From Mycolicibacterium chubuense NBB4 (lineage in GTDB: Bacteria; Actinomycetota; Actinomycetes; Mycobacteriales; Mycobacteriaceae): 64,000 bases of DNA. Below, in pieces: positions 7,067 through 28,310 of this stretch. The notes under the pieces were generated by a model. The model was not told the DNA's origin and made no database searches. It worked only from the letters and a program-made list of their open reading frames with translations. The stretch's first letter is position 1; each line of letters begins with the position of its first letter. A program made the translations under genes and the position numbers. Where the stretch lies: contig NC_018027.1 in NCBI RefSeq assembly GCF_000266905.1, positions 2,046,001-2,110,000 on the forward strand, in the 5' to 3' direction.

Positions 7067-7093
7067 CTTTACAAGAATTCGGCGATGTGTCAC
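7067..7093. promoter_or_regulatory. 27-bp catabolic-island element, copy A (ALDH promoter)
   Basis: Read leftward it is GTGACAC, 12 bases, TTGTAAAG. The same words with the same 12-base gap recur at 8902, 11803, 18724 and 28284. Here it ends 8 bases before the aldehyde dehydrogenase ATG. GTGACA and TAAAGC are 16 bases apart, close to -35/-10 spacing, so it may be a core promoter, an operator or both. Confidence 0.6.
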
Positions 7094-7118
7094 GGATTCC
7101 CGCCGACTTCCGTCGACT

Positions 7119-7664
7119 TCAGCTGTTCTTGATGCCCACCGCATGCCGCAGCTGCGCCAGGAACTGATCGTCGTCGTCGCTGCGCACGATGTAGTGCGAG
7201 ACGGCCACCCGGATGGCGGTGGCGGCCTTGACCGCACCGTTGGGGCCGGGCAGCAACTTCTCGAGCTGGCCGCGCATGGCCGGGATGATGTGGGCCAGCC
7301 GGCCGATGACGACCTCGGGTTCGATGTCGACGAGCCGCACGCCGGAGTACGACTGCTGATAGGCGACGATGAACTGCATCGCGGCGTCGACCCGGTCATT
7401 GCCCCGCAGCCCGGCGGTGGCCTTGGCGATGCCGGTCTCGAACATCTCGCGTTCGTAGACGCCGAACGCTTCGAGCAGCGCCTGCTTGTCGGCAAACCAG
7501 CGGTACAGCGTGGGCCGCGAGACGCCGGCCTGCAGCGCGACCTCGGACAGACTCAGTTTGGTCTGTCCGCTCCGGCCGAGGACTTCGGCGGTCGCGGCAA
7601 GGATCCGGTGCCGGGTCGAGGTGTCCTCGGCAGTCGCGGATCCGTCGCGTGCTGGATGGTTCAC
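7119..7664 (-). CDS. TetR-family transcriptional regulator
   Basis: A 181-residue regulator with an N-terminal helix-turn-helix. ILAATAEVLGRSGQTKLSLSEVA leads into VSRPTLYRWFADKQALLEAFG, the canonical TetR recognition helix and YRWF wing, at about residues 20-66. The rest is a helical ligand-binding domain. The start is a GTG at 7664. It lies between the aldehyde dehydrogenase operon and the phosphotransferase, all leftward, and is the only dedicated regulator in the island. It is therefore the prime candidate to bind the 27-bp elements; this is inference. Confidence 0.88.
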   Translation of the reverse strand: MNHPARDGSATAEDTSTRHRILAATAEVLGRSGQTKLSLSEVALQAGVSRPTLYRWFADKQALLEAFGVYEREMFETGIAKATAGLRGNDRVDAAMQFIVAYQQSYSGVRLVDIEPEVVIGRLAHIIPAMRGQLEKLLPGPNGAVKAATAIRVAVSHYIVRSDDDDQFLAQLRHAVGIKNS

Positions 7665-7675
7665 GTGGCTGACCT

Positions 7676-7703
7676 TCTATACGGGTTCGGTGTCGATCGT
7701 AAA
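7676..7703 (-). promoter_or_regulatory. SigA-like promoter for the TetR gene
   Basis: On the minus strand TTTACG (7703-7698) and TATAGA (7681-7676) are 16 bases apart. The expected transcription start is about 5 bases before the GTG at 7664, so the message would be nearly leaderless. The full 27-bp element is absent here. Confidence 0.4.
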
Positions 7704-7746
7704 GCGTGCGGTCCTCCGTGGCCGACAGCACGCCGGGCGTCGTTGG

Positions 7747-8862
7747 TCACAAAGACTTCTCCAATACGGCGACGGTGTCGAGATCCTCGAGCGCGGCGAG
7801 ACTGAGTTCGAGGCCCCGCACCGCGATGTCCGCGGCCTGCATGCCCCCCATGCCGGCGGTGATCAGCGCCGCGACATAGGGATACAGCGCAGCCTGGCGA
7901 TAGCGGTCCCACAACTCGTCGCGGTCCAGCTCCGGGCCGCCCCCGGCGGCCAGCGCCTGCCGGTAGACGTCGAGCACATCGCGCTGAGTCGCGATCCGGT
8001 CCTCGGTGGCCATGCTCGTGATCAGCGTGTAGGCCAGCTCGCGGCAGGGGTGGCCGCGGCGCACCGCCTGCCAGTCCAGCAGTCCGGCCGAGCCTGCGCG
8101 GAAATACAGGTTGCCCGGATGTGCGTCGCCGTGCATGACGGTGTGCGGGGGACGGTCGATCAGCGTGGCGACCGCTCGGTAGTTGTCGTCGATGAAGCGG
8201 CCGCGCTGCAGCGGCAGGTCCGTCGTGTCGGCCAGCCGGCGCGCGGACGCCTTGAGCAGCGGAGCCGTCAGCAGCGCGGCGCTGTCGTCGGACGCCGCGT
8301 AGAGCCAGCCGAGGGGTCCGATGCCGCGGCGATCGGGCAAGCGGCCCCAGAATGTCGCGTGCAGACCGGCCAGCAGTTCGACGACGAGCGCTGCGCGGTC
8401 GACGTCGATCGGGTGCAGCGTGTCGGGGAATTCACACTGCGTCGCGGCCAGGTCTTCCAGGACGAGCACGAATCGTCCTGTCCACGAGTCGAATCGGGCG
8501 CCATGACAGCGTGGCACGCCGGCCAGCTCCCCGGCGAGCTGACAGTAGAAGCGCGTCTCCGTCTCGGCGAGGTTGCCCAGTTCGCCCATCATGCGCAGGG
8601 GCACGCTCTCGGCCGCCATCTTGACGAACACCGACTCCGGGACGTCCTCGCCGGTGAGCGCCAGTCGCGCCCGCGACGATGTTCCCGCGTCGCCGCCGAT
8701 GACCGACACCGAGGTCACGGTGCGCCCGAGCAGCGAGGACATCGCCGCGGCATCGAGAGCGGCGACCGAGCGGGGTATCGGCCGCAGGCGCCCGACCAGC
8801 GTGTCGGCCGCGATCCGGCGCGCCCCGCGGCCGAGGTGGGCGAGTAACCTCCCGACAGACAC
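7747..8862 (-). CDS. aminoglycoside phosphotransferase-like kinase (APH/ChoK fold)
   Basis: A 371-residue member of the APH family. The catalytic loop HTVMHGDAHPGNLYF and the metal-binding LLDWQAVRRGHPCRELAYTL are present, with an N-lobe containing ESVFVKMAAES. In mycobacteria such proteins sit near acyl-CoA dehydrogenase and CoA-transferase genes and are not usually resistance enzymes. The GTG at 8862 is chosen because AGGAGG lies 6 bases before it; an upstream frame extension to 8895 lacks such a site. It is divergent from the CaiB gene across the 27-bp element, whose TTTACA-N17-AACCCT on this strand could be its promoter. Confidence 0.82.
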   Translation of the reverse strand: MSVGRLLAHLGRGARRIAADTLVGRLRPIPRSVAALDAAAMSSLLGRTVTSVSVIGGDAGTSSRARLALTGEDVPESVFVKMAAESVPLRMMGELGNLAETETRFYCQLAGELAGVPRCHGARFDSWTGRFVLVLEDLAATQCEFPDTLHPIDVDRAALVVELLAGLHATFWGRLPDRRGIGPLGWLYAASDDSAALLTAPLLKASARRLADTTDLPLQRGRFIDDNYRAVATLIDRPPHTVMHGDAHPGNLYFRAGSAGLLDWQAVRRGHPCRELAYTLITSMATEDRIATQRDVLDVYRQALAAGGGPELDRDELWDRYRQAALYPYVAALITAGMGGMQAADIAVRGLELSLAALEDLDTVAVLEKSL

Positions 8863-8901
8863 CTCATGCCTCCTAGGCTTTGCACCGGCAGCCACAACAG
8901 G

Positions 8902-8928
8902 GTTACAAACGTTGTCCGATTTGTAAAG
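8902..8928. promoter_or_regulatory. 27-bp catabolic-island element, copy B (divergent phosphotransferase/CaiB promoter)
   Basis: Reads GTTACAA, 12 bases, TTGTAAAG on the plus strand, ending 9 bases before the CaiB ATG. On the plus strand GTTACA and TAAAGT are 16 bases apart, and TAAAGT fits the mycobacterial TANNNT -10. On the minus strand TTTACA and AACCCT are 17 apart. It thus can serve both divergent genes. Confidence 0.6.
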
Positions 8929-8937
8929 TGAGGGTTC

Positions 8938-10116
8938 ATGACCGGTCCGCTGGAGGGTGTCAAGGTCGTCGAACTCGGAGTCTGGGTGGCCGGGCCGGCC
9001 GCGGGGGGAATCCTCGCGGATTGGGGCGCCGACGTGATCAAGATCGAACCACCGACCGGTGACCCCGCGCGGACGTTCGGCCGGATGCTCGGCCTCGACG
9101 GCAAGCTCAGCCCGCCGTTCGAGATGGACAACCGCGGCAAGCGCAGCGTCGTCATCGACGTGACGACCGAGGAGGGTCGCGGCACGGTCTTCGAATTACT
9201 CGGTGGCGCAGACATATTCCTCACCAACGTCCGTCCCGGGGCACTCCGGCGGGTCGGCCTGGACTTCCCGGCGGTGGCCCGCCGCAACCCGCGCCTGGTC
9301 TACGGGCTGATCACCGGGTACGGCGAGACGGGGCACGACGCCGACCGCGCGGCCTACGACGTCGCCGCGTTCTGGGCGCGGGCGGGCCTGGCCCATCTGC
9401 TCACCCGGCCGGGCGACACGCCACCGTTCCAGCGCGGCGGGATGGGCGACCACATGGCGGGCATGACGCTGGCCGGCGCGGTGTGCGCGGCGCTGGTCGC
9501 GCGGGCGCGCACCGGCACCGGCCAACTCGTCAGCACCTCGCTGTACCGCCAGGGCGCCTACACGGTCAGTTTCGACCTCAACACGTTCCTGCTCGCCGGC
9601 CACACGATCGCGATCGGCCAGCGCGAGACGATGGGCAACCCGTGCATGAACAACTACGTTGCGGGCGACGGGCGCCGATTCTGGATCGTCGGTCTGCAGG
9701 CCGGACGGCACTGGCCGCCGCTGTGCCGGGCTGTCGGCCGTCCCGAGTGGTTGACCGATCCGCGGTTCGCGACGCCGCGGTCCCGCGTCGCGCACGCCAG
9801 GGACCTGATCGCCGAACTCGACGAGATCTTCGCGACGAAGCCGCTCGACGCGTGGGCGGAAGTCTTTGCGGCCGAACCGGAATTGTTCTGGGCGCCGATC
9901 AACTCGCTGGAGGACGTGGTGGCCGACGAGCAGTTTCATGCTGCCGGCGGCATCGTCTACGTGCCCGACGAGACCGGTTCGGAGGTGATGATGGTGGCCT
10001 CGCCCGCGGACTTCCACGGCACACCAGTTCAGATGCGTTCGACGGCACCGCGTCTGGGCGAGCACACCGAAGAGGTGCTCGCCGAACTCGGTCGCCACGC
10101 GCGTGAGCGAGGATGA
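8938..10116 (+). CDS. CaiB/BaiF-family (class III) CoA-transferase
   Basis: A 392-residue family III CoA-transferase that moves CoA between carboxylic acids via an aspartyl-CoA mixed anhydride. The N-terminus GPLEGVKVVELGVWVAGPAAGGILADWGADVIKIEPP is diagnostic, and the probable catalytic aspartate is in RAAYDVAAFWARAG. The C-terminal domain has ADEQFHAAGGIV, typical of the family. The ATG at 8938 is so close to copy B of the island element that a leaderless message is likely. It probably activates an acid intermediate of the island pathway for beta-oxidation-like steps; donor and acceptor are unknown. Confidence 0.92.
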   Translation: MTGPLEGVKVVELGVWVAGPAAGGILADWGADVIKIEPPTGDPARTFGRMLGLDGKLSPPFEMDNRGKRSVVIDVTTEEGRGTVFELLGGADIFLTNVRPGALRRVGLDFPAVARRNPRLVYGLITGYGETGHDADRAAYDVAAFWARAGLAHLLTRPGDTPPFQRGGMGDHMAGMTLAGAVCAALVARARTGTGQLVSTSLYRQGAYTVSFDLNTFLLAGHTIAIGQRETMGNPCMNNYVAGDGRRFWIVGLQAGRHWPPLCRAVGRPEWLTDPRFATPRSRVAHARDLIAELDEIFATKPLDAWAEVFAAEPELFWAPINSLEDVVADEQFHAAGGIVYVPDETGSEVMMVASPADFHGTPVQMRSTAPRLGEHTEEVLAELGRHARERG

Positions 10117-10145
10117 GGACGCGACCGAACCCGGATTCCCACAGC

Positions 10146-10967
10146 CTATTTCGGTGGATGCGGACGCGGGCGCACCAGCACCGACTGCTGGATGGCGCCG
10201 ACCGGCCCCTGCTGGTCGAACAGCGTGCCGATCGTCGTCCCGATCCCGTCGGGGCCGTAGTTCGTCTCGGCGCGGATTCCGATCCACTCGCCGTCCGGTA
10301 GCCGGTGTATGTGCACCGCGAGATCGGAGTTCAGGAACGTCCACCTGCGGATGTCCAGCTTGGCGCCGATCCCGTTGGCGTCGTCGGCGACAGCGAACAA
10401 GCGCTCGAGCGGCGTCATCGACTCACCCTTGACCAGGTCGACCTCCGGCCGGATCCATGACTCGCCGGGGCCTTCACCCAACGGTGTGGTCAGCCACCGC
10501 CAATCCACGCTGTGCACGTAGTTGAGGTCCCAGTTCTTCTTCATGTCGCGGCTGGTTGCCTTGTCCAGCGGTCGCAGCGGCGGAGCCGGGGCGTGCACGA
10601 TCTCGGTGGTGTTCAGGGTCTGGAATCGCCAGCCGGTGGCGCGGGCGACCGGGCGGGGCCGCCCGTCCGGGCCCGGCGCGAGCATCTCGGCGCTGATCAA
10701 CTCGATCTGCTTGCCGGAGCGCTCCCGCTGCGTCCGGACCCAGAGGTCACCGTCGGCGGGCACCGGGCCGAGCAGGTCGATCAGCACTCGGCTGAGCCTG
10801 GTGTCCTCGCGTGGTTCGCAGCGCTGCAGGCCGCGGACCAGCAGAGCCGACACCGGGGCGGCGTGCTGGATGGCGGCGGTCCAAGTGCTGCGGACGTAGT
10901 CGCTGGCCGCGAACCGCTCGCCGAGGTCATCGGAGGCGTCGAGCAGCTCGTAGTAGGAGTCGGACAT
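10146..10967 (-). CDS. acyl-CoA thioesterase-family protein (hotdog fold)
   Basis: A 273-residue protein of the TesB-like acyl-CoA thioesterase superfamily with two hotdog domains. The N-terminal half has SALLVRGLQRCEPREDTRLSRV, the C-terminal half WTFLNSDLAVHIHRLPDGEWIG and GTLFDQQGPVGAIQQSVLVRP. The NSDLAVHIHR segment matches the second hotdog helix of such enzymes. It forms a leftward pair with the SMP-30 gene 9 bases upstream, driven from copy C of the island element. It likely hydrolyses or binds an acyl-CoA of the pathway. Convergent with the CaiB gene. Confidence 0.75.
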   Translation of the reverse strand: MSDSYYELLDASDDLGERFAASDYVRSTWTAAIQHAAPVSALLVRGLQRCEPREDTRLSRVLIDLLGPVPADGDLWVRTQRERSGKQIELISAEMLAPGPDGRPRPVARATGWRFQTLNTTEIVHAPAPPLRPLDKATSRDMKKNWDLNYVHSVDWRWLTTPLGEGPGESWIRPEVDLVKGESMTPLERLFAVADDANGIGAKLDIRRWTFLNSDLAVHIHRLPDGEWIGIRAETNYGPDGIGTTIGTLFDQQGPVGAIQQSVLVRPRPHPPK

Positions 10968-10976
10968 CGCAGCCTT

Positions 10977-11783
10977 TCAGATCAGGGTGGCGTCGAGACG
11001 AGAATCCCTGGTGCCGCGCAGACTTTCCGGATACGCGCTCGTCGACGACAACAGGAACAGCGTCCGCCCGTCCGGGCCGCCCAGCGCGCAGGCGATCGCG
11101 GTCCGGTCGCCGATGTCGATCCGGTCGGTCACGGTACCGTCGGCGCCGATCCGCTCGAATCGATGCGCCAGCGTCATCGCCGCCCATACGCCGCCTTCGT
11201 CATCGAGGCAGATGCCATCGGGGGGTCCGTCCAGTCCGTCGGCGAAAACCCTTCGCCCGCTCAATGTTCCGTCAGAAGCCACGGTGAAGGCGGTCAATCG
11301 GCGCGCGGTGGACTCGGCGACGATCAGCGTCGCGCCGTCCGGAGTCAGCACCATGCCGTTGGGAAAGTTCAGGTCACCGGCGACGACGGTGGCGCGGTCC
11401 CCGATCGGACGGCCGGGGTCGATGCGCACGATGACGCCGCCCTCGCGCGCCTGGGAGCCGACATATGCGCAGCCGTGCCGGTCGACCACCATGTCGCCGA
11501 GGTCGGCGGAGACCAGCGTCGACACGTCGGCGACGGTGGTGACCGTCTCCCCGTCATAGCCGAGGATCTGCCTGCGTCGCGTCGACACGATGAGCAGCGA
11601 GCCATCGGGCCGGAAGCCGAGTCCCGACGGGGCATGGCCCGGCAGCGCGAGCGTGCTCATCTCGCCATCCAGTGTCACCGTGTGCACCGCCTCCCCGAGC
11701 ATGTCGGAGAACCACACCAGACCTTCGAACCAGCGCGGGCCTTCGCCGAAACAGAAGCCGTTGGCCAACGGGGTCAGCGTCAC
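10977..11783 (-). CDS. SMP-30/gluconolactonase-like beta-propeller
   Basis: A 268-residue six-bladed propeller. FGEGPRWFEGLVWFSDML carries the first metal-ligand glutamate. LNFPNGMVLTPDGATLIVAEST is the conserved FPNGM asparagine loop, and GPPDGICLDDEGGVWAAM supplies the DGxxxD residues. The family hydrolyses lactones using a divalent metal. Beside a P450 and Baeyer-Villiger enzyme, a lactonase role is attractive but inferred. Start is GTG at 11783, about 20 bases from copy C of the 27-bp element. It is cotranscribed with the downstream thioesterase. Confidence 0.85.
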   Translation of the reverse strand: MTLTPLANGFCFGEGPRWFEGLVWFSDMLGEAVHTVTLDGEMSTLALPGHAPSGLGFRPDGSLLIVSTRRRQILGYDGETVTTVADVSTLVSADLGDMVVDRHGCAYVGSQAREGGVIVRIDPGRPIGDRATVVAGDLNFPNGMVLTPDGATLIVAESTARRLTAFTVASDGTLSGRRVFADGLDGPPDGICLDDEGGVWAAMTLAHRFERIGADGTVTDRIDIGDRTAIACALGGPDGRTLFLLSSTSAYPESLRGTRDSRLDATLI

Positions 11784-11802
11784 CGCCGGACCGCCCGAAC
11801 GC

Positions 11803-11829
11803 CTTTACAAAACACGGGACAAGTGTCAC
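11803..11829. promoter_or_regulatory. 27-bp catabolic-island element, copy C (divergent SMP-30/P450 operon promoter)
   Basis: On the minus strand it reads GTGACAC, 12 bases, TTGTAAAG. On the plus strand TTTACA and CACGCT are 17 bases apart, a plausible -35/-10 pair for the rightward operon starting at 11877. It is the only control region between the two divergent transcription units. Confidence 0.6.
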
Positions 11830-11876
11830 GCTCGCTGGGTGCAGCTGTCAACTACCCGCAGCCCCCGGGACCTGAC

Positions 11877-12587
11877 GTGAACATGAAGAAATACCACAGC
11901 CACACGCTGCTCTATCTGCACGAGACGATCGATCTGGGATCGGCGCGCAGCGAGCAGTTCGTCGCGGAGTTCACCGGGGTGTACCACCCGATGATGACCG
12001 AGCTCGGCGCGCGGCTGTTCGCGATGTGGGAGACGACCTCCTACAACGGGCACTGGCCGCAGGTCACGATCATCTGGGAGATCGACGCCTTCGCCGACTA
12101 CGCGCGCATCGGCCGGGCTCAGGCCCGCGGCGGCAGCCACGAGGCGGTAGCCGGCAAGTGGGCGACGTACCTGCGCGACACGGGCGCCCGCGGTGAGGGC
12201 CGCATCATGTACGCCGGCCGGAGCAACAAGACGCTGGCCCAACTGCAGGACGCAGACGTCAAGGCGGGCCTGGTGATCCAGGAGATCATGCAGACCAAGC
12301 CCGGCCGCCAGGACGACTACATCCGGGAACTCGAGCGGCTCTACGTGCCGTGGTCGGAGTCCACGGGCAAGCGGTGGCTCGGTTCGTTCATCACCACGTT
12401 CCGGTTCAACGAGGTGATCCACTACTGGGCGCTCGAGGGGAACTGGGACTGCTTCGAGAACCACTATCCGTCGTGGAAGGACAGCCCGCCCGCCGAGATC
12501 GTCACGTGGATGAGTGTCGCTCCCGCTCTGCGGGACGGTTGGGAGGACTCGATCCTCGCCGCACTGCCGCCGTCTCCGCTGCAATGA
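11877..12587 (+). CDS. NIPSNAP-like dimeric alpha/beta-barrel protein
   Basis: A protein of about 236 residues that looks like a tandem ferredoxin-like repeat. The first half is HTLLYLHETIDLGSARSEQFVAEFTGVYHPMM, the second VIQEIMQTKPGRQDDYIRELERLYVPW, each followed by an aromatic strand (VTIIWEIDAFADY, VIHYWALEGNWDCF). This resembles NIPSNAP proteins, found next to catabolic genes and of unsettled role. GTG at 11877 has GGGA 6 bases upstream; ATG at 11883 is an alternative. First gene of the P450 operon, with its stop overlapping the P450 start by four bases. Confidence 0.75.
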   Translation: MNMKKYHSHTLLYLHETIDLGSARSEQFVAEFTGVYHPMMTELGARLFAMWETTSYNGHWPQVTIIWEIDAFADYARIGRAQARGGSHEAVAGKWATYLRDTGARGEGRIMYAGRSNKTLAQLQDADVKAGLVIQEIMQTKPGRQDDYIRELERLYVPWSESTGKRWLGSFITTFRFNEVIHYWALEGNWDCFENHYPSWKDSPPAEIVTWMSVAPALRDGWEDSILAALPPSPLQ

Positions 12588-13804: not shown

Positions 13805-13805
13805 C

Positions 13806-14774
13806 GTGTGGTGCTACCGACTGGTCGCGCCCTATGAGTTCGAGAGGATCGAAGTGCCGCGGCGCTCACCGGAGTCCCTCGCTGACGGACAGGTGCTGCT
13901 GCGGTTCCTCGCCGGCGGCATCTGCGGCAGCGACCTGCCCGGCTTCCGCGGCGCGCAAGGCCGACTGCCGGGGGACACCGGTGCGCTGGCCGCGGAGATG
14001 AACGGGTTCCCGATCCACGAGGTCGCCGGCGAGGTCATCGCCAGCCGGCATCCGCCGCACACGCCGGGGGACCGTGTCGTCGGCTGGGCGTCGGGCTTCG
14101 ACGGGCTGATGGAGTACGTGGTCGCCGACGGCAACGGGCTGGCGCCCTACGACGCCTCCCTGAGCCCCGAACACGCGGTGGCACTTCAGCCGTTGGCCTG
14201 CGTGCTGTATGCCGCCGAACAGCTGCCCGACCTGACCGGCCGCCACGTCGCGGTACTGGGGCAGGGGTCGATCGGGCTGCTGTTCTCCTACGTCGCCAAG
14301 GCCGCGGGCGCCGCGCACGTCACCGGCGTCGACCCGGTGGAGCGCGCCGACGTGGGACCGGCGTTCGGGGTGGACACCGTCGTGCGCACCACCAGCGACC
14401 GCTGGGTCGGCCACCTCGCAGCGGATGCCAAGCCCGACATCGTGATCGAGGCTGTCGGCCATCAGGTCGCGACGCTGTCGCACGCGGTCGAGGCGGCCGC
14501 CTTCGGCGGGACCGTGTTCTACTTCGGCGTGCCCGACGACGACGCCTATCCGATCAGCATGCGCACCATGCTGCGCAACAACCTGACGCTGAAATCCGGT
14601 GTCACCATGGACCGCCGACGTGTGCTCGACCGAGCGAACGTGTTCGCGCGTGACCACCCCGGTCTGCTGCAGCGCTACCTGACCCACACATTCCCGGTCG
14701 GCCAGGTCCAGGCCGCATTCGAGTTGGCCTGCCGCCCCGTCCCGGGGCGGATCAAGATCGCGATCGTGCCGTGA
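13806..14774 (+). CDS. medium-chain (zinc-type) alcohol dehydrogenase
   Basis: A 322-residue MDR-family dehydrogenase. The catalytic-zinc cysteine lies in FLAGGICGSDLPGF and the histidine-glutamate pair in FPIHEVAGEVIAS. The cofactor site is HVAVLGQGSIGLLFSYVAKAAGA. The usual four-cysteine structural zinc lobe is missing, making it shorter than typical alcohol dehydrogenases. The GTG at 13806 is one base after the P450 stop. It probably oxidises the alcohol made by the P450. Its stop overlaps the HpcH start by four bases. Confidence 0.88.
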   Translation: MWCYRLVAPYEFERIEVPRRSPESLADGQVLLRFLAGGICGSDLPGFRGAQGRLPGDTGALAAEMNGFPIHEVAGEVIASRHPPHTPGDRVVGWASGFDGLMEYVVADGNGLAPYDASLSPEHAVALQPLACVLYAAEQLPDLTGRHVAVLGQGSIGLLFSYVAKAAGAAHVTGVDPVERADVGPAFGVDTVVRTTSDRWVGHLAADAKPDIVIEAVGHQVATLSHAVEAAAFGGTVFYFGVPDDDAYPISMRTMLRNNLTLKSGVTMDRRRVLDRANVFARDHPGLLQRYLTHTFPVGQVQAAFELACRPVPGRIKIAIVP

Positions 14775-15526
14775 CGGCCAGCAGATTGCAGGACGCGCTC
14801 GCCGCCAAGGACCAGGTGTGGGGCGGCTGGGTGGTGGCTCCGACCCTGATGGGCCCGGAGGAGTTCGCCGCAGCCGGGTACGACTACGTCGGATTCGACG
14901 TTCAGCACGGCTATCTCAGCGACGCCGACGTGGCGCTGATGCTGCGCCGGCTCGAGCACGTCCCGATCGCCACCGTGGTGCGCCTGCCCGGCGTCGATGC
15001 CGCGCCGATCGGGCGGGTGCTCGACGCGGGCGCCGACGGTGTCGTGATCGCGATGGTCGAGACCGCCGAGCAGGCGGCGCAGGCGGTGGCGGCGGCGCGC
15101 TACGCCCCGGCCGGGGTCCGCAGTTTCGGGCCGCTGCGGGCGAGCCTGGGCATCGACCCCGCCGCACTGCAGGCGCGAGCGTCGGTGTTCGCGATGATCG
15201 AGACGGCCCGTGGACTCGCCGCGGCCGACGAGATCTGTGCGGTCGACGGCTTGACCGGAATCTACGTGGGTCCGGCGGATCTCGCGATCTCGATGGGCCA
15301 CGGCCCCGCCGACGCGTGGTCGCAACCGGACGTCACCGACGCGATGGACCGGATTCAGCGCGCCGCGGCGGCGGCAGGTCTGGTCGCGGGGGCTCATGCC
15401 GGCACCGGGAAGGTGGGAAAAGACCTGGCACAGAGAGGTTTTACGATGATCACGCTGACGTCGGAATCGCAGGCGCTGCGCCGCGGGGCGGCAGTGCACT
15501 TGGCCGAAGCGACAGGGGATTCCTGA
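14771..15526 (+). CDS. HpcH/HpaI-family class II aldolase
   Basis: A 251-residue metal-dependent aldolase of the HpcH/citrate-lyase TIM-barrel family. Family residues can be traced: the histidine region DVQHGYLSD (the common acidic residue before His is Gln here), the arginine in VVRLPGVD, the metal glutamate in FAMIET and the aspartate in YVGPADLAISMG. Known members split 2-keto-4-hydroxy acids into pyruvate and an aldehyde. Start is GTG at 14771, coupled to the dehydrogenase stop. It would release a central metabolite late in the island's pathway; the aldol substrate is unknown. Confidence 0.88.
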   Translation: MTASRLQDALAAKDQVWGGWVVAPTLMGPEEFAAAGYDYVGFDVQHGYLSDADVALMLRRLEHVPIATVVRLPGVDAAPIGRVLDAGADGVVIAMVETAEQAAQAVAAARYAPAGVRSFGPLRASLGIDPAALQARASVFAMIETARGLAAADEICAVDGLTGIYVGPADLAISMGHGPADAWSQPDVTDAMDRIQRAAAAAGLVAGAHAGTGKVGKDLAQRGFTMITLTSESQALRRGAAVHLAEATGDS

Positions 15527-16251
15527 TGGCCGGCGTGGCTCTCGTCACCGGCGCCGCCCGCGGTCAGGGCGCGGCGATCGCCGCCCGTCTCGTCGACGAC
15601 GGCTTCCGGGTCGCGGCCTGCGACGTGCTGGCCGACGGTGCGGAGGACGTCGCCGCCCGCCTCGGGGAGGACCATGCCGTCGCCGTGGCGCTCGACGTCA
15701 CCTCCGCCGACCAGTGGGCGCGCGCCGTCGCCGCCACGGTCGAACGATTCGGCGGTCTCACCACGCTGGTGAACAACGCCGGTGTGCTGCACAGAGCTTC
15801 GCTGCCCGATGAGACCGCGGCGGGCTTCGAGAACAGCTGGCGGGTCAACTGTCTCGGTCCGTTCCTGGGTATCAAGGCCGCCCTGCCGTATCTGCGCGAC
15901 GCGGACGGCGCGGCGGTGGTCAACACGTGCAGTACCGGCGCGGTCCGGCCGTTCCCGAACCACAGCGCGTACGCGTCGTCGAAATGGGCGCTGCGCGGGC
16001 TGACCCAGGTGGCGGCCGTCGAGTTGGCGCCGTCGGGCATCAGGGTCAACGCAGTGTTCCCCGGACCGGTCGAGACACCGATGCTCGACGCCGACACCCA
16101 GACCCGGCTCGTGGGGCGCGCCCTGATGGGGCGCATCGGCAAGCCCGTCGAGATCGCGGACGCCGTCGCGTTCCTGGTCTCCGAACACGCCTCGTTCATC
16201 ACAGGATCCGAGCTCATCGTCGACGGTGGGCAATCCCTGCAGATTGGATGA
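15526..16251 (+). CDS. short-chain dehydrogenase/reductase
   Basis: A classical 241-residue SDR. It has the cofactor motif TGAARGQGAAIA at the N-terminus, an acidic residue after strand 2 (AACDVL, favouring NAD), NNAGVLHR, and the catalytic YASSK with an upstream serine in NTCSTGAV. The C-terminal substrate loop has PGPVETPML. Its ATG overlaps the HpcH stop by one base. It probably interconverts a hydroxyl and keto group on a pathway intermediate. Confidence 0.92.
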   Translation: MAGVALVTGAARGQGAAIAARLVDDGFRVAACDVLADGAEDVAARLGEDHAVAVALDVTSADQWARAVAATVERFGGLTTLVNNAGVLHRASLPDETAAGFENSWRVNCLGPFLGIKAALPYLRDADGAAVVNTCSTGAVRPFPNHSAYASSKWALRGLTQVAAVELAPSGIRVNAVFPGPVETPMLDADTQTRLVGRALMGRIGKPVEIADAVAFLVSEHASFITGSELIVDGGQSLQIG

Positions 16252-16260
16252 CAACGCCCC

Positions 16261-17778
16261 ATGGCGAAATCTCTCTCGGTGGGAATCATCGGCGCCGGTC
16301 CCGGCGGTCTGGCGCTGGGAATCTTCCTGCGCAAGGCGGGGTTCGACGACTTCACGATCTTCGACCGCGAGGACGGCGTCGGCGGCACCTGGCGGATCAA
16401 CACCTACCCGGGTCTGGCCTGCGACGTGAAATCCCACCTGTACTCCTACTCCTTCGACCTCAACCCGCGCTGGTCGCGGATGTGGTCGGGCCAGCGGGAG
16501 ATCCTCGACTACTTCGAAACCTGCGCCCGCCGCTACCAGTTGGAACCACACCTGCAGCTCAGTACCGACGTCGTCTCCGCGGTATGGGAACCCGAGCTCC
16601 GGTCGTGGCGGCTGATCACCGCCGACGGTGCCGAGCACACCTTCGACATCATCGTGTCGGCCGTCGGCCTGTTCACCCAGCCGGTGCTGCCGGATCTCGT
16701 CGAGGAGGAGCCCTTCGCCGGAACCGTCATGCACACGGCGCGGTGGGACCACTCGGTGGACCTGCGCGGTGCCAGGGTGGCGGTACTCGGCACGGGTTCG
16801 ACCGCGGCACAATTGGTTCCCGAGGTCGCCAAGCTCGCCGAGAAGGTGTATTCGGTGCAGCGCTCCCCGACATGGGTCCTGCCCAAGCCCGACCGCGAGT
16901 ACACCCGGCGGGAGAAGTGGGTGTTCGCTCATGTGCCGTTGGCCAAGAAGATCTACCGCACCCGGCTGTGGCTGCGCAGCGAGGCGAACATCTCGGTCAT
17001 CGAGAACGGCAGCGACAAAACCCGCGAGTTCACCGGTATCGCGCTGCGCAACCTCGAGGCCGCCATCGCCGACGACGACCTGCGCCGCCGGCTGACCCCC
17101 GAGCACCCGCTGGGGTGCAAGCGGCTCGTCTTCGCGACCGACTACCTGCAGACCCTGGGTCAGCCGCACGTCGAGGTGGTGTCCAGCCCGGCCCGTGCGC
17201 TGCGCGCCCGCGCACTGGTCACCGAGGACGGCACCGAGCTCCACGTCGACGTCGTGCTGTGTGCGACCGGATACGCGGCGGCGGACTACCTGGGTCAGAT
17301 CGAGGTCCGCGGCGCCGAGATGACGGCGCTCTCCGACACCTGGCGCGACGGGGCGTTCGCCTACCTGGGCATGACCGTGCCGGGCTACCCGAACTTCTTC
17401 ATGCTCTACGGGCCCAACACGAACGTCGGTTCCAACTCCGTGATCTTCATGCTCGAGGCGCAGGCGCACTACATCGCCCGGGCGCTGAAACACCTGCGGC
17501 GCACGCACCGGTCGTATATCGAGGTCCGCCCCGAGGTGATGACGCGATTCCTGCAGCGGATCGACAGGTGGATGCAGGGCACCGTCTGGCTGACCCGGTG
17601 CAGCAACTACTTCCGGGCCGCCAACGGCCGCGTCGTCACCCAGTGGCCGCGCAGCGCCCGGAACTTCTGGACACTGACTCGCTGGTTCCGGCCGGGCGAC
17701 TACACGTTCGACCCACCGGCGACCCGGCCCACCATCCGGGTCGGCGCACAGACGGTGGCAGACAATGACCCTCGCTGA
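16261..17778 (+). CDS. FAD-dependent Baeyer-Villiger-type monooxygenase
   Basis: A 505-residue class B flavoprotein monooxygenase. An N-terminal FAD site, VGIIGAGPGGLALGIFLRKAG, is followed by GVGGTWRINTYPGLACDV. The Baeyer-Villiger fingerprint FxGxxxHxxxW is present as FAGTVMHTARW near residues 151-161, and a second Rossmann site AVLGTGSTAAQL binds NADPH. Such enzymes turn ketones into esters or cyclic ketones into lactones. The P450 and dehydrogenase upstream could supply a ketone, and the esterase overlapping its 3' end by 14 bases could open the product. Confidence 0.92.
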   Translation: MAKSLSVGIIGAGPGGLALGIFLRKAGFDDFTIFDREDGVGGTWRINTYPGLACDVKSHLYSYSFDLNPRWSRMWSGQREILDYFETCARRYQLEPHLQLSTDVVSAVWEPELRSWRLITADGAEHTFDIIVSAVGLFTQPVLPDLVEEEPFAGTVMHTARWDHSVDLRGARVAVLGTGSTAAQLVPEVAKLAEKVYSVQRSPTWVLPKPDREYTRREKWVFAHVPLAKKIYRTRLWLRSEANISVIENGSDKTREFTGIALRNLEAAIADDDLRRRLTPEHPLGCKRLVFATDYLQTLGQPHVEVVSSPARALRARALVTEDGTELHVDVVLCATGYAAADYLGQIEVRGAEMTALSDTWRDGAFAYLGMTVPGYPNFFMLYGPNTNVGSNSVIFMLEAQAHYIARALKHLRRTHRSYIEVRPEVMTRFLQRIDRWMQGTVWLTRCSNYFRAANGRVVTQWPRSARNFWTLTRWFRPGDYTFDPPATRPTIRVGAQTVADNDPR

Positions 17779-18685
17779 TCGCCTGGACGGAGCGCTGCGG
17801 CATCTCGCAGAGATGCGCACCGACCTCTCGCCGCCCGTCCTCGGCGCGGTCCGTGACTCGCTGAACCAGCGGCGCGCAGAGGCGGCGATGACCTCGGACA
17901 CGATCGGCGTCGAGGTCGAACAGCGCGAGGTGCCGGCGTCGCCGGGGCTCACGGTGCGGATCTACCGCGGCGGGCCGCCTCCATCGCCTGCGATGATCTA
18001 CTGCCACTCAGGGGCTTTCGTTCTGGGCAACCTGGACACCGACCATTTGCAGTGCATCGAATACGCGCGGCGCGGACGCTGCACCGTGATCTCGGTGAAC
18101 TATCGGCTCGCGCCAGAGGACCCGTTCCCCGCGGCGCTGGACGACGCGGCCGCCGTCCTCGACTGGGCGGCGCAGAGCTCAGCAGAGCTCGGCATCGACG
18201 CCGGCGCTCTCGCCGTGGCGGGCAGCAGTGCCGGGGGAGCGCTCGCCGCACGACTGGCCGCGCGGGCCGCGGCCGGGGCGGCGCCTCCCGTCGTCTTCCA
18301 GATGCTGCACCAACCCGTCCTCGACGATCGGCCCACGCCGTCGAAGGAGGAGTTCACCACGACGCCGGGCTTCGACACCGACGCCGTCCGGTGGATGTGG
18401 CGGCACTATCTCGAAGGGGCCCCGGCCTCGGCCGAGGCGGCTCCCGGCCGCGCCGGTGACTTGGCCGGGCTCCCGGCCGCGCTGATCACCTGCTCGGAAC
18501 TCGACCCGCTGCGCGACGAGGCCATCGACTACGCGTTGCGGCTGATGTGGGCCGGTGTCACCACCGAGCTGCACGTGTTCCCCGGCACCTGCCACGGATT
18601 CGACTCGATGGTCCCGGAGTGGGATGTCAGCGAGCGGCTGTTCGACATCCAGGGCGCGGCATTACGTCGCGCGTTCCTGCGGTAG
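17765..18685 (+). CDS. alpha/beta hydrolase, hormone-sensitive-lipase family
   Basis: A 306-residue esterase. The oxyanion segment reads YCHSGAFVLGN, a variant of the family's HGGG. The nucleophile serine is in VAGSSAGGALAARLAA near residue 154, the aspartate in SELDPLRDEAIDYA and the histidine in GTCHGFDSMV. It starts inside the last codons of the Baeyer-Villiger gene, so the two are coupled. The most economical role is hydrolysis of the ester or lactone produced by that enzyme. Last gene of the 11.9-18.7 kb operon. Confidence 0.92.
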   Translation: MTLADRLDGALRHLAEMRTDLSPPVLGAVRDSLNQRRAEAAMTSDTIGVEVEQREVPASPGLTVRIYRGGPPPSPAMIYCHSGAFVLGNLDTDHLQCIEYARRGRCTVISVNYRLAPEDPFPAALDDAAAVLDWAAQSSAELGIDAGALAVAGSSAGGALAARLAARAAAGAAPPVVFQMLHQPVLDDRPTPSKEEFTTTPGFDTDAVRWMWRHYLEGAPASAEAAPGRAGDLAGLPAALITCSELDPLRDEAIDYALRLMWAGVTTELHVFPGTCHGFDSMVPEWDVSERLFDIQGAALRRAFLR

Positions 18686-18723
18686 GCGCGTCCGTGTAAC
18701 GCGCTGACGTCGGTAGGCTGTCG

Positions 18724-18750
18724 CTTTACAATCGATGTCGAGAATGTCAC
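18724..18750. promoter_or_regulatory. 27-bp catabolic-island element, copy D (acyl-CoA dehydrogenase promoter)
   Basis: Reads CTTTACAA, 12 bases, ATGTCAC toward the right. TTTACA and CACGCT are 17 bases apart, and the hexamer CACGCT ends 6 bases before the ATG at 18760, ideal for a leaderless message. Confidence 0.6.
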
Positions 18751-18759
18751 GCTGCCGGT

Positions 18760-19899
18760 ATGGACTTCTCCGAAGTCGAGCTGTCCGACGAAGACCAAGC
18801 CTTCCGCGACGAACTGCGGCAGTTCCTCGTGTCGGTGGTGACCGACGATGTGATCCGCCGCGACCGCGAAAGCGGAGACAATTTCGACGAGGACGTCCAC
18901 CTCGCGCTCGGCGCCGCGGGCTATCTCGAACGCGACTGGCGCGCGGGAACCGATGCCGGTTTCAGCGCCGTGCAGCGGCGGATCTGGGAGCTCGAGATTG
19001 GTCGGGCGCACACGCCGTGGTTCCACTGGGGCACGACCGCGATGGTCGCCAACGCCGTGGATCGGTTCGGTTCGGCCGACCTCAAGGACGAGGTGCTCCC
19101 GAAGGTGCTCTCCGGTCAGTACCGGCTGTGCCTCGGATACACCGAGCCCGACGGTGGCTCCGACGTCGCGACGTGCAAGACCCGCGCCGTGCGGGAAGCG
19201 GATGGATCGAGCTGGGTTATCAATGGCGCGAAGATGTTCACGTCCAATGCGCACCACGCCCAGTTCGTCTTCCTGATCACCAACACCGATCCCTCGGCGC
19301 ACAAACACAAGAGCCTGACGATGTTCCTGGTGCCGCTCGACGCGCCCGGCGTCGAGATCCAGCCGATCCGCACCGTCGACGGCGACCGCACCAACATCAC
19401 CTTCTACAGCGACGTCCGCGTCGACGACCGGTACCGGGTGGGCGAGGTCAACGGTGGCTGGGCCGTGCTCAGGGACGCTTTGAACGCCGAACACGGCACA
19501 GTGGAACGCGACGACAGTGGGCTGCACAAGATCGCGGTCATGACCGAACATCTACTGCTGCTGGCCGACGCGGTCGATGCGGTCGCGGCACGCGTGTCCC
19601 TCGATGACGGGGCGGTGGCATATCGGTTGGGCCGCAGCATCGCCCGGCTCGAAGCGGCGCTGTCCACTCCTGAGATGTACGGCCGGGTGGCGATCGCGCA
19701 GGCGCTGCGCGACATCACCCCGGACTTGATGGACGTTCTCGGGACTGCGTCGAGCCTTCCCGGAGGCACCGACGCGGAGTACCTGTTCCGGTTGGCGGGC
19801 CCGACCGGCATCTACGGCGGCACATTGGAAGTGTTCCGCAACATGATCGCCCAGCATGCCCTCGGCCTCGGCAAGCCGAGCTACGCGCCACCCGCTTAG
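18760..19899 (+). CDS. acyl-CoA dehydrogenase
   Basis: A 379-residue flavoprotein of the acyl-CoA dehydrogenase family. The middle domain has LCLGYTEPDGGSDVATCKTRAVR and NGAKMFTSNAHHAQFVFLITNT, which contact FAD and CoA. The C-terminal helical domain ends GPTGIYGGTLEVFRNMIAQHALGLGKP. Where many homologues have YEGT with the catalytic glutamate, this protein has YGGT, as in many actinobacterial FadE proteins; the base may be elsewhere or in a partner subunit. It stands alone behind copy D of the island element and would desaturate the CoA thioester formed by the CaiB protein. Confidence 0.92.
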   Translation: MDFSEVELSDEDQAFRDELRQFLVSVVTDDVIRRDRESGDNFDEDVHLALGAAGYLERDWRAGTDAGFSAVQRRIWELEIGRAHTPWFHWGTTAMVANAVDRFGSADLKDEVLPKVLSGQYRLCLGYTEPDGGSDVATCKTRAVREADGSSWVINGAKMFTSNAHHAQFVFLITNTDPSAHKHKSLTMFLVPLDAPGVEIQPIRTVDGDRTNITFYSDVRVDDRYRVGEVNGGWAVLRDALNAEHGTVERDDSGLHKIAVMTEHLLLLADAVDAVAARVSLDDGAVAYRLGRSIARLEAALSTPEMYGRVAIAQALRDITPDLMDVLGTASSLPGGTDAEYLFRLAGPTGIYGGTLEVFRNMIAQHALGLGKPSYAPPA

Positions 19900-21494: not shown

Positions 21495-21510
21495 GCATTC
21501 GATTATGCCC

Positions 21511-21534
21511 AAAGGGTCTGACACAGAACCCTTT
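21511..21534. promoter_or_regulatory. perfect inverted repeat upstream of the HNH gene
   Basis: AAAGGGT (21511-21517) and ACCCTTT (21528-21534) are separated by 10 bases. The dyad lies 17 bases before the HNH start, overlapping where the -35 would be for the CATAAT box at about 21502-21507. It may be an operator. Confidence 0.4.
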
Positions 21535-21630
21535 TCCGCGGCGGCGTTCGATGAACGTGCGCAAAACCCCTCCGCGCGGCGGCGTGTCGATGCGCAGACA
21601 CGCACCCTCGCGGGAAGGCGGGGACCCGCT

Positions 21631-22563: not shown

Positions 22564-22664
22564 GATCCTCCCGATTGCGCTGTACTTTCCGTCCACTGCA
22601 TGGTAACGACATTCTCATAGTTGGAGAAGCTGCTTTCTGTTGCGGCGTGCCGAGGGAGCTGATC

Positions 22665-23585: not shown

Positions 23586-23593
23586 CCGCGGCT

Positions 23594-24610: not shown

Positions 24611-24654
24611 CAGCCGAACCTACCGAAGGCGGGGCGCCGCTGAACTTGCTTCGA

Positions 24655-25449: not shown

Positions 25450-25461
25450 CGAGTGCCGAGG

Positions 25462-25950
25462 CTAGCGGGCGGCGAAGTACCTCTGTCCGTCGGAGGCCGC
25501 CCGGCCGAAGCCGGCCTTCACGATCGGGGCGAGAACCGTGAACGGCAGGCGCATCGCGCGGACCGGTTCGATCGCGACCAGCCAGGTGAAACGGGTGCCG
25601 ACGCCGTCGGGCTCGATGCGGTAGTCCTCGGCGAACCGACGGAACAGCGGCACGTTCGCCTCGTACACGTAGAACGCGTAGCCCGAGCCTTCGTCCCACC
25701 GGAAGAAGCGTTCGTGCACCCGGGTTCCTCCGGTGCCCACCTCCCGGGTGGTGCCGACACCGAACGGCCGCGGCGACGTCCACGTCAACGACGAGACCGT
25801 CTTGCCCCACGCCGACAGCGACTGGTCGGACTGCAGCGACTCCCAGACCCGCTCGGGCGTAGCGGCGAAGTGCCTCTCGTAGCGGAACACGTGCGGCGCC
25901 GAGTCGAAGAATTCGGCGTCGGCGGACTGCAGGCGGAACCATCGCGTCAT
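25462..25950 (-). CDS. SRPBCC-family protein
   Basis: A 162-residue helix-grip (START/Bet v1-like) protein. It starts with a strand FRYERHFAATPERVWESL and the loop LSAWGKTVSSLTW, with a middle GTRVHERFFRWDEGSGYAFYV and C-terminal helix PFTVLAPIVKAGFG. The fold binds hydrophobic ligands in a cavity; function unknown. ATG at 25950. Lies 10 bases downstream of the DUF427 gene, so cotranscription is likely. Confidence 0.75.
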   Translation of the reverse strand: MTRWFRLQSADAEFFDSAPHVFRYERHFAATPERVWESLQSDQSLSAWGKTVSSLTWTSPRPFGVGTTREVGTGGTRVHERFFRWDEGSGYAFYVYEANVPLFRRFAEDYRIEPDGVGTRFTWLVAIEPVRAMRLPFTVLAPIVKAGFGRAASDGQRYFAAR

Positions 25951-25960
25951 GCCGATGACT

Positions 25961-26653
25961 CTAAAAGACGGTCTCGCGGAGTTCAGGGAGTTCGGCGCGC
26001 ACATCGACTCTGGTCTCGTCGAAGCTCACCATGCCCTTGATCGGTTGGCTCTCCGGTAGCGGGTCGTCGTAGCTCCACGCGACGTCGGCGATGACGGTGT
26101 CGCCGACCGCGGCATCGAACCAGGTGGCGTACCCCTTGTAATTGCAGTAGCTCGACGTGTCGGACGGGATCAGCAGATCCGTGCGGACCAGGGCCGGACT
26201 GACGTAGAGGCGCGGCTCCAAGGCGGTCTCGAACAGGATCACCGTGTCGGCGGTGTCGACGAGGGTCGTGCCGGCGATATCCACCCGCAGGTGACGCGAC
26301 GTCGGACGGCAGTCCACGCGGTGGTAGGGATTCGGTGGGTAGTGCACCAGTCGCCGCCCCTCCTCGAGCCAGGTGTCCACCGCCTCCCACGGGACGACGA
26401 CGTAGCCGGGCGCCTCCGGGACCGGGGTGCCGGGCAAGTCGGAGATCTCCTCGGCGGCGAATGCGTAGCTCAGCGGCTGACCCCGGCGATGGACCATCAA
26501 CGCGGCTTCGGTGTCGATCACGGTGCGGCCGTCTTTGACCGCCTGCACCCGCCGCCGGTGCGGTTCGATGTAGACGAGATCGCCGGCGACGTGCGGAGTG
26601 AACCGGCCTGCGCGGTCCCGCCCGAGGGGTCCGCGTCCCGCAACCAGACTCAT
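25961..26653 (-). CDS. DUF427 domain protein (two copies of the domain)
   Basis: A 230-residue protein with a full C-terminal DUF427 domain: TVDTADTVILFETALEPRLYV-like start, then SDTSSYCNYKGYATWFD with the conserved CxYKG core, and GDTVIADVAWSYDDPLPE. The N-terminal half (DLVYIEPHRRRVQAVKDGRTVIDTE) looks like a degenerate second copy. Function is unknown; such genes are common in actinobacteria. Divergent from the WS/DGAT gene across a spaced 10-bp inverted repeat. Confidence 0.85.
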   Translation of the reverse strand: MSLVAGRGPLGRDRAGRFTPHVAGDLVYIEPHRRRVQAVKDGRTVIDTEAALMVHRRGQPLSYAFAAEEISDLPGTPVPEAPGYVVVPWEAVDTWLEEGRRLVHYPPNPYHRVDCRPTSRHLRVDIAGTTLVDTADTVILFETALEPRLYVSPALVRTDLLIPSDTSSYCNYKGYATWFDAAVGDTVIADVAWSYDDPLPESQPIKGMVSFDETRVDVRAELPELRETVF

Positions 26654-26671
26654 CGAAGATCGGCTACTGCA

Positions 26672-26715
26672 CGGCGTTTCGAGTACGGCATGACAACCGA
26701 GTCTACGAAACGCCG
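26672..26715. promoter_or_regulatory. spaced perfect 10-bp inverted repeat between divergent genes
   Basis: CGGCGTTTCG (26672-26681) and CGAAACGCCG (26706-26715) are perfect complements separated by 24 bases. The arms are centred 34 bp apart, about three helical turns. The pair sits between the DUF427 and WS/DGAT starts, a likely dual operator. Confidence 0.45.
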
Positions 26716-26775
26716 CACCGGGGATCAGAAAACCGGTGGAATGGGTACCTGCTGACGAACGAACAGGGGGAGCGA

Positions 26776-28206
26776 GTGAAACGGCTCAACGGCGTGGACG
26801 CCATGATGCTCTACAGCGAGACGCCCGAGATCCACATGCACACCCTGAAGATCGGCATCCTGGATGTGTCCGCGGTCGACGGCTACGACTTCGAGTTGTT
26901 CCGCAGGGCCGCGCTGCCCCGGTTGCACGCGCTGGCTCCGCTGCGGTACCAGCTCGTGGACATCCCGATGAAGGTGCACCACCCGATGTGGGTGCAGAAC
27001 GCCGACATCGACGTCGACTACCACGTCCGCAGGGCCCGGGTGCGCGCTCCCGGCGGCCGCCGCGAACTCGATGCGCTGATCGGGGAGATCGCGGGCACCC
27101 CACTGGACCGGACTCGTCCACTGTGGGAGATGTATGTGGCGGAAGGGCTGTCGGACAACAGGATCGCCGTGATCCACAAGGTTCACCACGTCCTCGCAGA
27201 CGGCATGGCGTCGGCCAACCAGATGGCCATGGCGATCGGGCCGCACGAACCCGAGATCGGCGGTCAGCTGGACGCGGTGGCGGCCGACTCGCGCGCCCCG
27301 GCGAATCTGCTCAAGGCCGCCGGGCGCGATCACCTGCGCCAGATCGCCCGGCTGCCCCGGCTGGTCAACGACACCGCCGCGGGCGTGGCTCGCGTGCGCA
27401 GGAAGGCCAGGGAGCGTGGCCGCCATCCCGACCTCGCGCGCAACTTCGCGCCGCCGCCGTCGTTCCTCAACCACGTCGTCACACCCGGCCGGCGCTTCGC
27501 GACCGCCCCGCTGGCCCTGGCTGATGTCAAGGAGACGGCCCGGTGTCTCGGCGTGACCCTCAACGACATCGTGCTCGCGACCGCCGCCGGTGCGCTGCGT
27601 GAGCTGCAGCTGCGCTACGACGGCCGGGCGGGCGAGCCGCTGATCGCCGGGGTCCCGGTCAGTTACGACACCTCGCCCGGGCGGCTTGTCGGCAACGAAT
27701 TCACCTACATGACGCCGTCATTGCCCGTTCACATCGACGATCCGCTGCAGCGGGTGGCGCTGACGGCGACCGCGACGGCGATCGCGAAGGAGAACCACAA
27801 TCTGCTGGGGCCGACGCTGTTGCCGTCCTGGCTGTCGTACCTGCCGCCGAGCCTGACGCCGCAGATCTTCCGCTCGCAGGCCCGGCGCGTCGAGTCGGCG
27901 ATGGTCATGAACCTCACGATCTCCAACGTGCCCGGTCCGCGGGAGCGGGGCTGCGTGGAGGGCGCCGTAGTCAACGAGATCTACTCCGTGGGGCCGATCG
28001 TGGCCGGCAGCGGGATGAACATCACGGTGTGGAGCTACGTCGACCAGCTCGCGATCTCGGTGCTCACCGACGACCGCACCCTCGAGGATCCGCACGAGGC
28101 CACCGACGCGATGATCGAGTCGTTCTCGCAGATCCGCCGCGCCGCCGGACTGTCCGGTGACCTGACACCCGTCGAGTCGGCGTTGCCGTTGGCCGCAGCC
28201 GTCTGA
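26776..28206 (+). CDS. wax ester synthase/diacylglycerol acyltransferase (WS/DGAT)
   Basis: A 476-residue acyltransferase that transfers acyl groups from acyl-CoA to diacylglycerol or a fatty alcohol to make storage triacylglycerol or wax ester, usually at the membrane or lipid droplet. The catalytic HHxxxDG is HHVLADGMAS near residue 137. The late conserved block is NLTISNVPGPRERGCVEGA, preceded by PVSYDTSPGRLVGNEFTYM. A GGGGGAGCGAGTG region precedes the start. Mycobacterial genomes carry many paralogues; which one this is cannot be said. Confidence 0.93.
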   Translation: MKRLNGVDAMMLYSETPEIHMHTLKIGILDVSAVDGYDFELFRRAALPRLHALAPLRYQLVDIPMKVHHPMWVQNADIDVDYHVRRARVRAPGGRRELDALIGEIAGTPLDRTRPLWEMYVAEGLSDNRIAVIHKVHHVLADGMASANQMAMAIGPHEPEIGGQLDAVAADSRAPANLLKAAGRDHLRQIARLPRLVNDTAAGVARVRRKARERGRHPDLARNFAPPPSFLNHVVTPGRRFATAPLALADVKETARCLGVTLNDIVLATAAGALRELQLRYDGRAGEPLIAGVPVSYDTSPGRLVGNEFTYMTPSLPVHIDDPLQRVALTATATAIAKENHNLLGPTLLPSWLSYLPPSLTPQIFRSQARRVESAMVMNLTISNVPGPRERGCVEGAVVNEIYSVGPIVAGSGMNITVWSYVDQLAISVLTDDRTLEDPHEATDAMIESFSQIRRAAGLSGDLTPVESALPLAAAV

Positions 28207-28283
28207 CACACGGAAGCCGTTGCTCCGCGCACTCTTTCGCGGGGCCAGCCGGAGGCGGCCGGGTGCCGCACGCGCAATTCATG

Positions 28284-28310
28284 CTTTACATATCGACCGC
28301 CGAGTGTCAC
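28284..28310. promoter_or_regulatory. 27-bp catabolic-island element, copy E
   Basis: Reads CTTTACAT, 12 bases, GTGTCAC rightward; TTTACA and CACGCT are 17 bases apart as in copies C and D. The only gene it can serve is the orphan at 28374, because the gene to its left is transcribed toward it. Confidence 0.55.

Follow-up and report, generated by a model that had tools for sequence, protein, structure and literature searches.

Five copies of an inverted repeat among catabolic genes

The stretch of DNA analyzed here, hereafter called the window, covers 64,000 nucleotides of the Mycolicibacterium chubuense NBB4 genome (NC_018027.1, positions 2,046,001 to 2,110,000). It carries a 27-bp element in five copies, starting at positions 7067, 8902, 11803, 18724 and 28284 of the window, as well as the gene of a TetR-family regulator (TetR-A, 7119..7664, minus strand). 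An initial annotation had described these five copies as having an invariant internal spacing, as unseen in coding regions and each placed before a catabolic-type gene, and had proposed the TetR protein as their likely regulator. The five-copy element is real: allowing up to three mismatches, the 27-bp pattern matched the window five times (0, 2, 0, 1 and 1 mismatches by position), while shuffled windows gave a mean of 0.30 matches and none of 100 reached five. The most divergent copy is the one at 8902 (GTTACAA...TTTGTAAAG).

All five sites are intergenic by the gene models used, in which overlapping mechanical open reading frames (ORFs) were not counted as genes. Site 1 (7067..7093, minus strand; TGTAAAGCT, ATG at offset 9, T at -7) stands before an aldehyde dehydrogenase (ALDH) gene (5571..7058, minus; PF00171, 1.1e-137), which is probably followed in its operon by a gene for a SnoaL-like protein (5155..5574, minus; PF13577, 7.6e-32). 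TetR-A has the helix-turn-helix domain TetR_N (PF00440, 6e-12, 45.6 bits against a cut-off of 24), with the recognition helix VSRPTLYRWF, and is probably co-transcribed with an APH/EcKL-type phosphotransferase gene (APH; 7747..8862, minus). The APH domains (PF02958/PF01636) were found on 7747-8895; this ORF is open to 8895, and GTG 8862 is preferred as its start, having AGGAGG upstream. Site 2 (8902..8928, plus), of the form GTTACA-N14-TGTAAA, occupies the gap between APH and the gene of a CaiB-type class III CoA transferase (8938..10116, plus; PF02515, 1.7e-111). Beyond an acyl-CoA thioesterase gene (10146-10967, minus), site 3 (11803..11829, minus) separates an SMP-30/gluconolactonase gene (10977-11783, minus) from an operon on the plus strand that begins with a NIPSNAP-like protein (11883-12587; NIPSNAP E 0.0021, below the cut-off) and a cytochrome P450 (12584-13804). 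These are followed at 13806..18685 (plus) by a zinc alcohol dehydrogenase (ADH), an HpcH/HpaI aldolase, a short-chain dehydrogenase/reductase (SDR), a Baeyer-Villiger-type flavin monooxygenase matching cyclohexanone and steroid monooxygenases, and an alpha/beta hydrolase matching the esterase LipW (7.3e-113), all assigned by Pfam and similarity. Site 4 (18724..18750, minus; TGTCACGCT, ATG at offset 9, T at -7) precedes an acyl-CoA dehydrogenase (ACAD) gene (18760..19899, plus; PF02770/PF02771). Site 5 (28284..28310, minus), which also reads TGTCACGCT, precedes the gene of an "orphan" protein of 196 aa without a Pfam family (28374..28964, plus), with a predicted transcription start site (TSS) at 28320, a 54-nt leader and AGGGAGA before ATG 28374. 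Further to the right the window encodes a WS/DGAT protein and others (Pfam).

The neighbors named in the initial annotation, namely ALDH, APH/CaiB, SMP-30 with the P450 operon, ACAD and the Pfam-less protein, were thus all found where it had put them. With the P450, SDR/ADH, Baeyer-Villiger monooxygenase, hydrolase, CoA transferase, ACAD and aldolase, the cluster may break down a cyclic lipid-like compound by oxidation, ring opening and beta-oxidation.

The five sites form an inverted repeat, KTKACA-N14-TGTMAM. The fuller element is an inverted repeat of 26-32 bp, AGC-KTKACA-(AAT-N8-AA)-TGTMAM-GCT, with the hexamers 14 bp apart, and it lies in gene-start regions, as is found for TetR operators. 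A search for the half-site form (TTTACA, GTGACA, GTTACA or TTGACA, followed by 14 bp and the reverse complement of one of these) returned five exact matches in the window and no other within one mismatch. Similarly, KTKACAN14TGTAAAG had five exact matches in the whole genome (6,342,624 bp, 3 contigs), all within the window; at one mismatch there were four outside it, compared to six for the reversed-pattern control. A sequence-only model was then built from 56 of 64 non-redundant sites of other genomes, eight having been dropped by hand and the window's own excluded. With this model the window sites ranked 1 to 5 genome-wide (E 0.0017 to 0.075), and the next different place had an E of 0.56. 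This last match (C3:1791071) lies 8 bp before an ORF that looks thiolase-like by eye, and it was omitted as a sixth site because it is unproved. The motif is therefore not scattered across the genome. A dispersed repeat or chance would be a negligible explanation: it is at odds with the shuffled windows, it is contradicted by the top five ranks obtained with a model from other genomes, and between copies the inner bases vary while the outer bases and the spacing hold.

The two half-sites are not always alike. Among 56 non-redundant TGTCAC sites, the bases following TGTCAC are GCT (frequencies 0.86, 0.79 and 0.79), and those following the partner TGTAAA, read outward, are G-C-T (0.89, 0.54 and 0.55). 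We considered a TetR-A/B heterodimer, TetR-B being a paralogue found in relatives, as the source of this asymmetry (TTTACA left, TGTCAC right). This idea was dropped, since the genome has one such TetR (13 of its 126 candidates scored) and symmetric sites exist.

Conservation of the element and of TetR proteins in the genus

The conservation of the sites upstream of orthologues in related mycobacteria bore out the initial proposal. At least one copy of TTTACAN14TGTMAC was present in 198 of 248 genomes of the genus, commonly three to six, and the reversed control pattern was mostly absent from them. In a sample of 397 genomes across the order, TTTACAN14TGTCAC occurred in 39 of the 42 genus genomes; outside the genus it was found in 7 of 355, with one match each, compared to 12 of 355 for the reversed control.

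We further analyzed 75 relatives' loci around TetR homologues (L070-L144, the named loci). They contain 209 sites, spread over 70 of the 75, and 43 of the 209 have the symmetric form TTTACA-N14-TGTAAA. The spacing proved as invariant as had been claimed, with 209 sites at 14 bp between the hexamers versus a single match over 12 other spacings. Among the mapped orthologues of the window's genes, which are those checked, none in the 75 loci had a site more than 30 bp inside it. When a site in a divergent pair is counted twice, the genes behind the sites are TetR-B (56), P450, mostly a second one (48), SMP-30 (44), APH (52, in two classes, TGTAAA/TGTAAC), the NIPSNAP-like gene (41), CaiB (49, in two classes) and ALDH (30). 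All 30 ALDH-side sites are 9-10 nt from the start. ACAD-side sites numbered two in these loci, and more were seen in others (L193, L258).

The "orphan" gene proved to be a recurrent member of this set. Homologues with 36-51% identity start less than 200 bp from a site in 13 other genomes (L014, L016, L018, L025, L026, L027, L030, L032, L095, L172, L173, L175 and L190), and homologues in L113, L259 and L260 are not within this distance; apart from L095 and L113, these loci had been selected for a site or for their richness in sites. By eye, the family shares the motif GGWLxDRxxAGWxV. A protein without a Pfam family (28374-28964) is thereby placed in a defined regulon. The densest arrangement is a single catabolic island on contig 4 of genome G067 (86991-170192, L255-L259), with 16 sites in 83 kb. 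Ten of its proteins were tested and include YrbE/Mce-type proteins (PF02405, PF11887), two thiolases, an enoyl-CoA hydratase and a ferredoxin. This content would suit a hydrophobic, terpenoid- or sterol-like substrate, and the gene content of the cluster is likewise consistent with a lipid-, terpenoid- or sterol-like compound.

The TetR protein follows the same distribution. Homologues of TetR-A at E 1e-10 or better were found in 211 of the 248 genus genomes (13 candidates scored per genome), 207 of them strong. A strong TetR and the site occurred together in 197 genomes, the TetR only in 10, the site only in 1 and neither in 40 (Fisher 1.5e-35, which is not a true probability because the genomes are related). 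In the order-wide sample the TetR was present in 41 of 42 genus genomes and in 0 of 355 others (8 candidates scored per genome). Relatives have, in addition, the paralogue TetR-B, 56-70% identical to the window protein, which the window genome lacks. It is present in 58 of the 75 named loci, in 56 of which a site lies within 150 bp upstream. Over all loci, some of which were fetched because of a site, the same holds for 59 of 70 distinct cases of TetR-B and 2 of 2 more distant TetRs. The recognition helix, VSRPTLYR[WY]F, is constant in the A and B paralogues where covered. TetR-B mostly lies between CaiB and TesB homologues and is often divergent from the second P450, with the site in the gap. 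A TTTACA-N14-TGTAAA site is also found at the start of TetRs in L022 and L034 that have 51-53% identity to the window protein, pointing to a larger group of regulators with this operator in common.

Because TetR and site co-occur, are both confined to the genus in the order-wide sample, and TetR-B carries a site at its own start, the protein at 7119 is the likely regulator of the sites, as had been proposed. Several observations weigh against this assignment. Only 7 of 103 distinct TetR-A cases have a site in the 150 bp upstream, and there is none directly before it in this genome. In relatives the TetR-A gene is mostly found behind APH, with a site at the APH start, and from this gene order the window TetR probably regulates itself by being co-transcribed from the site of APH. 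In genome G241 there are four sites, and none of its 109 candidates, all scored, is such a TetR. Conversely, 10 of the 248 genomes have the TetR without an exact TTTACAN14TGTMAC site. We looked at nine of these ten, leaving out G070 (73% complete). Within the 3.5-kb region fetched, five (G063, G178, G149, G206 and G157) have rlmN beside the TetR and none of the other cluster genes, and G084 and G078 have the TetR alone. Before ACAD, G196 carries a site with one mismatch, and G042 has ATTACA-N14-TGTAAT in the APH/CaiB gap. L200, L204, L205, L207 and L208 are rlmN-side TetR loci of this kind. The TetR beside rlmN may have another role there, and the co-occurrence is that of the whole cluster rather than of the TetR alone.

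G241 and the ten genomes with TetR but no exact site would also fit a regulator other than TetR-A/B that binds the sites, the TetR hitchhiking in the cluster. We consider this improbable, as a site stands just before the TetR even where the latter is far from other sites, and the start of TetR-B overlaps or adjoins a site in the 56 named loci mentioned above. In G004, G151 and G024 a TetR that is more than 1 Mb, or another contig, away from the other sites has a site of its own about 73-110 bp upstream, and P450 homologues are found beside this TetR too. In G004, for example, the TetR and its own site are at 0.17 Mb of a 5.97 Mb contig, next to P450 and NIPSNAP-like homologues, and the sites before ADH and the orphan gene are at 4.71 Mb.

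A candidate operator laid over two predicted divergent promoters

Gene starts were counted on the 344 outward sides of 172 non-redundant sites. This pool, like those behind the other site counts of this section and the half-site frequencies above, was drawn from all loci gathered by then, the window's own included. An ATG or GTG was found at offset 9 on 94 sides, 85 of them with T at -7. Offset 8 had 33 starts, 20 with T, and offsets 10-49 had at most 24 starts each, at most 6 with T. The T mostly moves with the start codon, being at +2 when the start is at 8 and at +3 when the start is at 9. Furthermore, T at +3 was found in 56 of 60 TGTCAC half-sites with a start 8-10 nt away compared to 34 of 61 without (p 2e-6), and in 57 of 83 TGTAAA half-sites compared to 45 of 116 (p 5e-5).

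Leaderless mycobacterial promoters have a TGn extended -10, an A at -11, a T at -7 and the start codon at +1, and in their sequence register the sites agree with this arrangement. At 17 bp, the opposite half-site provides a -35-like KTKACA. Because start codon and T(-7) keep this register at offset 9, we read the half-site as the putative extended -10, and the half-site opposite to it as the -35, of a leaderless promoter. Among the genes of the window, ALDH (7058) and ACAD (18760) fit the leaderless register exactly. For APH the TSS is predicted at 8892, and for the P450 operon at 11839, on a short GTG ORF. This possible leaderless ORF of 13 codons (11839..11880, plus; GTG at offset 9) carries CTGTCAAC, which recurs in relatives, 22 bp from the half-site. 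In L028, CTGTCAAC is present but the GTG is not, and we therefore consider a small ORF no more likely than a DNA element located 22 bp downstream of the half-site. On the right side of TGTCAC sites, 41 GTG codons at offset 9 open 16 ORFs of at least 100 codons and 23 of fewer than 60 codons. Two further points count against the promoter part of our proposal: CaiB and SMP-30 of the window are outside the leaderless register, and the -10 of the site is without the usual T at -12.

We infer from the sequence data, with a probability of about 0.8, that the element serves a TetR-family repressor as its operator and is superimposed on two divergent promoters that interlock. The repressor here would be the protein encoded at 7119-7664 and, in relatives, also TetR-B. 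Each 9-bp half-site would serve twice, as half of the repressor site and as promoter sequence: TGTMAMGCT would act as an extended -10 (TGn-xAxxxT, T at -7), and on the other strand, as KTKACA, it would supply the -35 of the opposite promoter, across a 17-bp spacer. Transcripts would begin about 9 nt beyond the site, in many cases directly at the start codon. A bound repressor, presumably a pair of dimers, would cover both promoters at once, and an intermediate of the pathway, possibly a CoA thioester, would make it dissociate.

The fixed 17-bp spacer and the register of T(-7) and start codon would also suit a promoter class for a particular sigma factor only, the TetR being merely one of its targets. 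This is unlikely in our opinion. A promoter needs no dyad symmetry, yet TTTACA-N14-TGTAAA is common, and the G after the half-site is still frequent without a start 8-10 nt away (0.77-0.79). In addition, TetR and site are both genus-confined, and no sigma factor was present among the 30 region proteins given to Pfam.

Taking the proposed operator-promoter further, we lean slightly toward a reading in which the single 9-bp word TGTMAMGCT has three readers, as repressor half-site, extended -10 and opposing -35. The 32-bp palindrome would then be a complete two-way switch whose spacing is set by repressor and polymerase at once, and the operator would be common to paralogous TetRs across the genus, with regulons ranging from a few sites to the G067 island and its Mce transporter. 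If true, such an interlocked promoter-operator would combine two-way repression with leaderless starts in a compact form, and would lend itself to tests of a sequence used by repressor and sigma alike.

The half-site symmetry, the candidate built-in leaderless promoter, the second TetR of the relatives and the recurrence of the orphan gene are what the initial annotation had missed. Overall, a catabolic regulon is defined in most sampled genomes of the genus, with a probable regulator and a precise operator, and this operator predicts targets in other mycobacterial genomes.

Comparison with known systems

In the parts of the open-access literature that our search returned, no paper stating this motif or regulator was found. 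The recurrence of start codons at a distance of exactly 9 nt from the site, together with T at -7, appears to be new, as does the resulting view of an operator embedded in a promoter.

KstR and KstR2, the mycobacterial TetR repressors of sterol catabolism, likewise have several dispersed operators before catabolic genes. Their operators are shorter palindromes than the 14-bp-spaced hexamers described here. KstR was ruled out as the regulator by the protein model NF033703, which the 7119 TetR matches with 23.3 bits (4.1e-5) against a cut-off of 280, and also by its sites, which the initial annotation had likewise found not to fit.

The most promising known match was Rv0767c and its motif X, since this TetR likewise has ALDH, P450 and SDR targets, as far as the available text shows (PMC6593523; PMC4482099). 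As described in the accessible part of one report, the motif X palindrome stands before P450, ALDH, SDR and TetR genes, and 12 of 14 operons were up more than 3-fold on phytosterol (PMC6593523). That our element is this regulon of phytosterol-induced genes is nevertheless very unlikely. The Rv0767c-type locus of this genome, identified beside an ALDH above the TIGR04284 cut-off, has a different TetR and a different palindrome, GGACATGTGTCC, present twice in the gap, and lacks our site within one mismatch. Its TetR, assigned as the Rv0767c orthologue by its place beside the Rv0768-type ALDH, aligns with the 7119 TetR over 48 residues only, 17 of them identical; the 7119 protein is thus not the Rv0767c orthologue. 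Because this locus has GGACATGTGTCC twice and a different TetR, motif X is probably another regulon, a judgment made from the locus and not from the published logo. In L165 (7690-7850), two GGACATGTGTCC palindromes lie between the Rv0768-type ALDH and its TetR; such a pair is likely a different TetR operator. In the available text of a further study, Rv0767c sites are enriched for GAC and GTC, which is compatible with GGACATGTGTCC (PMC10312376).

Among solved structures, the best match to the window protein (residues 16-93) was Mce3R (9b7y, 5.4e-8). The matching region is in the second half of a chain of 406 residues, whereas the window protein is 181 residues long with a single TetR_N match.

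In promoter layout, a comparable case is that of E. coli AcrR, likewise a TetR repressor on a symmetric divergent promoter (acrA/acrR), which in the accessible part of the report has shared -10 elements and TSSs 10-23 bp apart (PMC12825309). Unlike in this system, each predicted -10 of our element overlaps the opposite -35, and the predicted TSSs are 45 bp apart.

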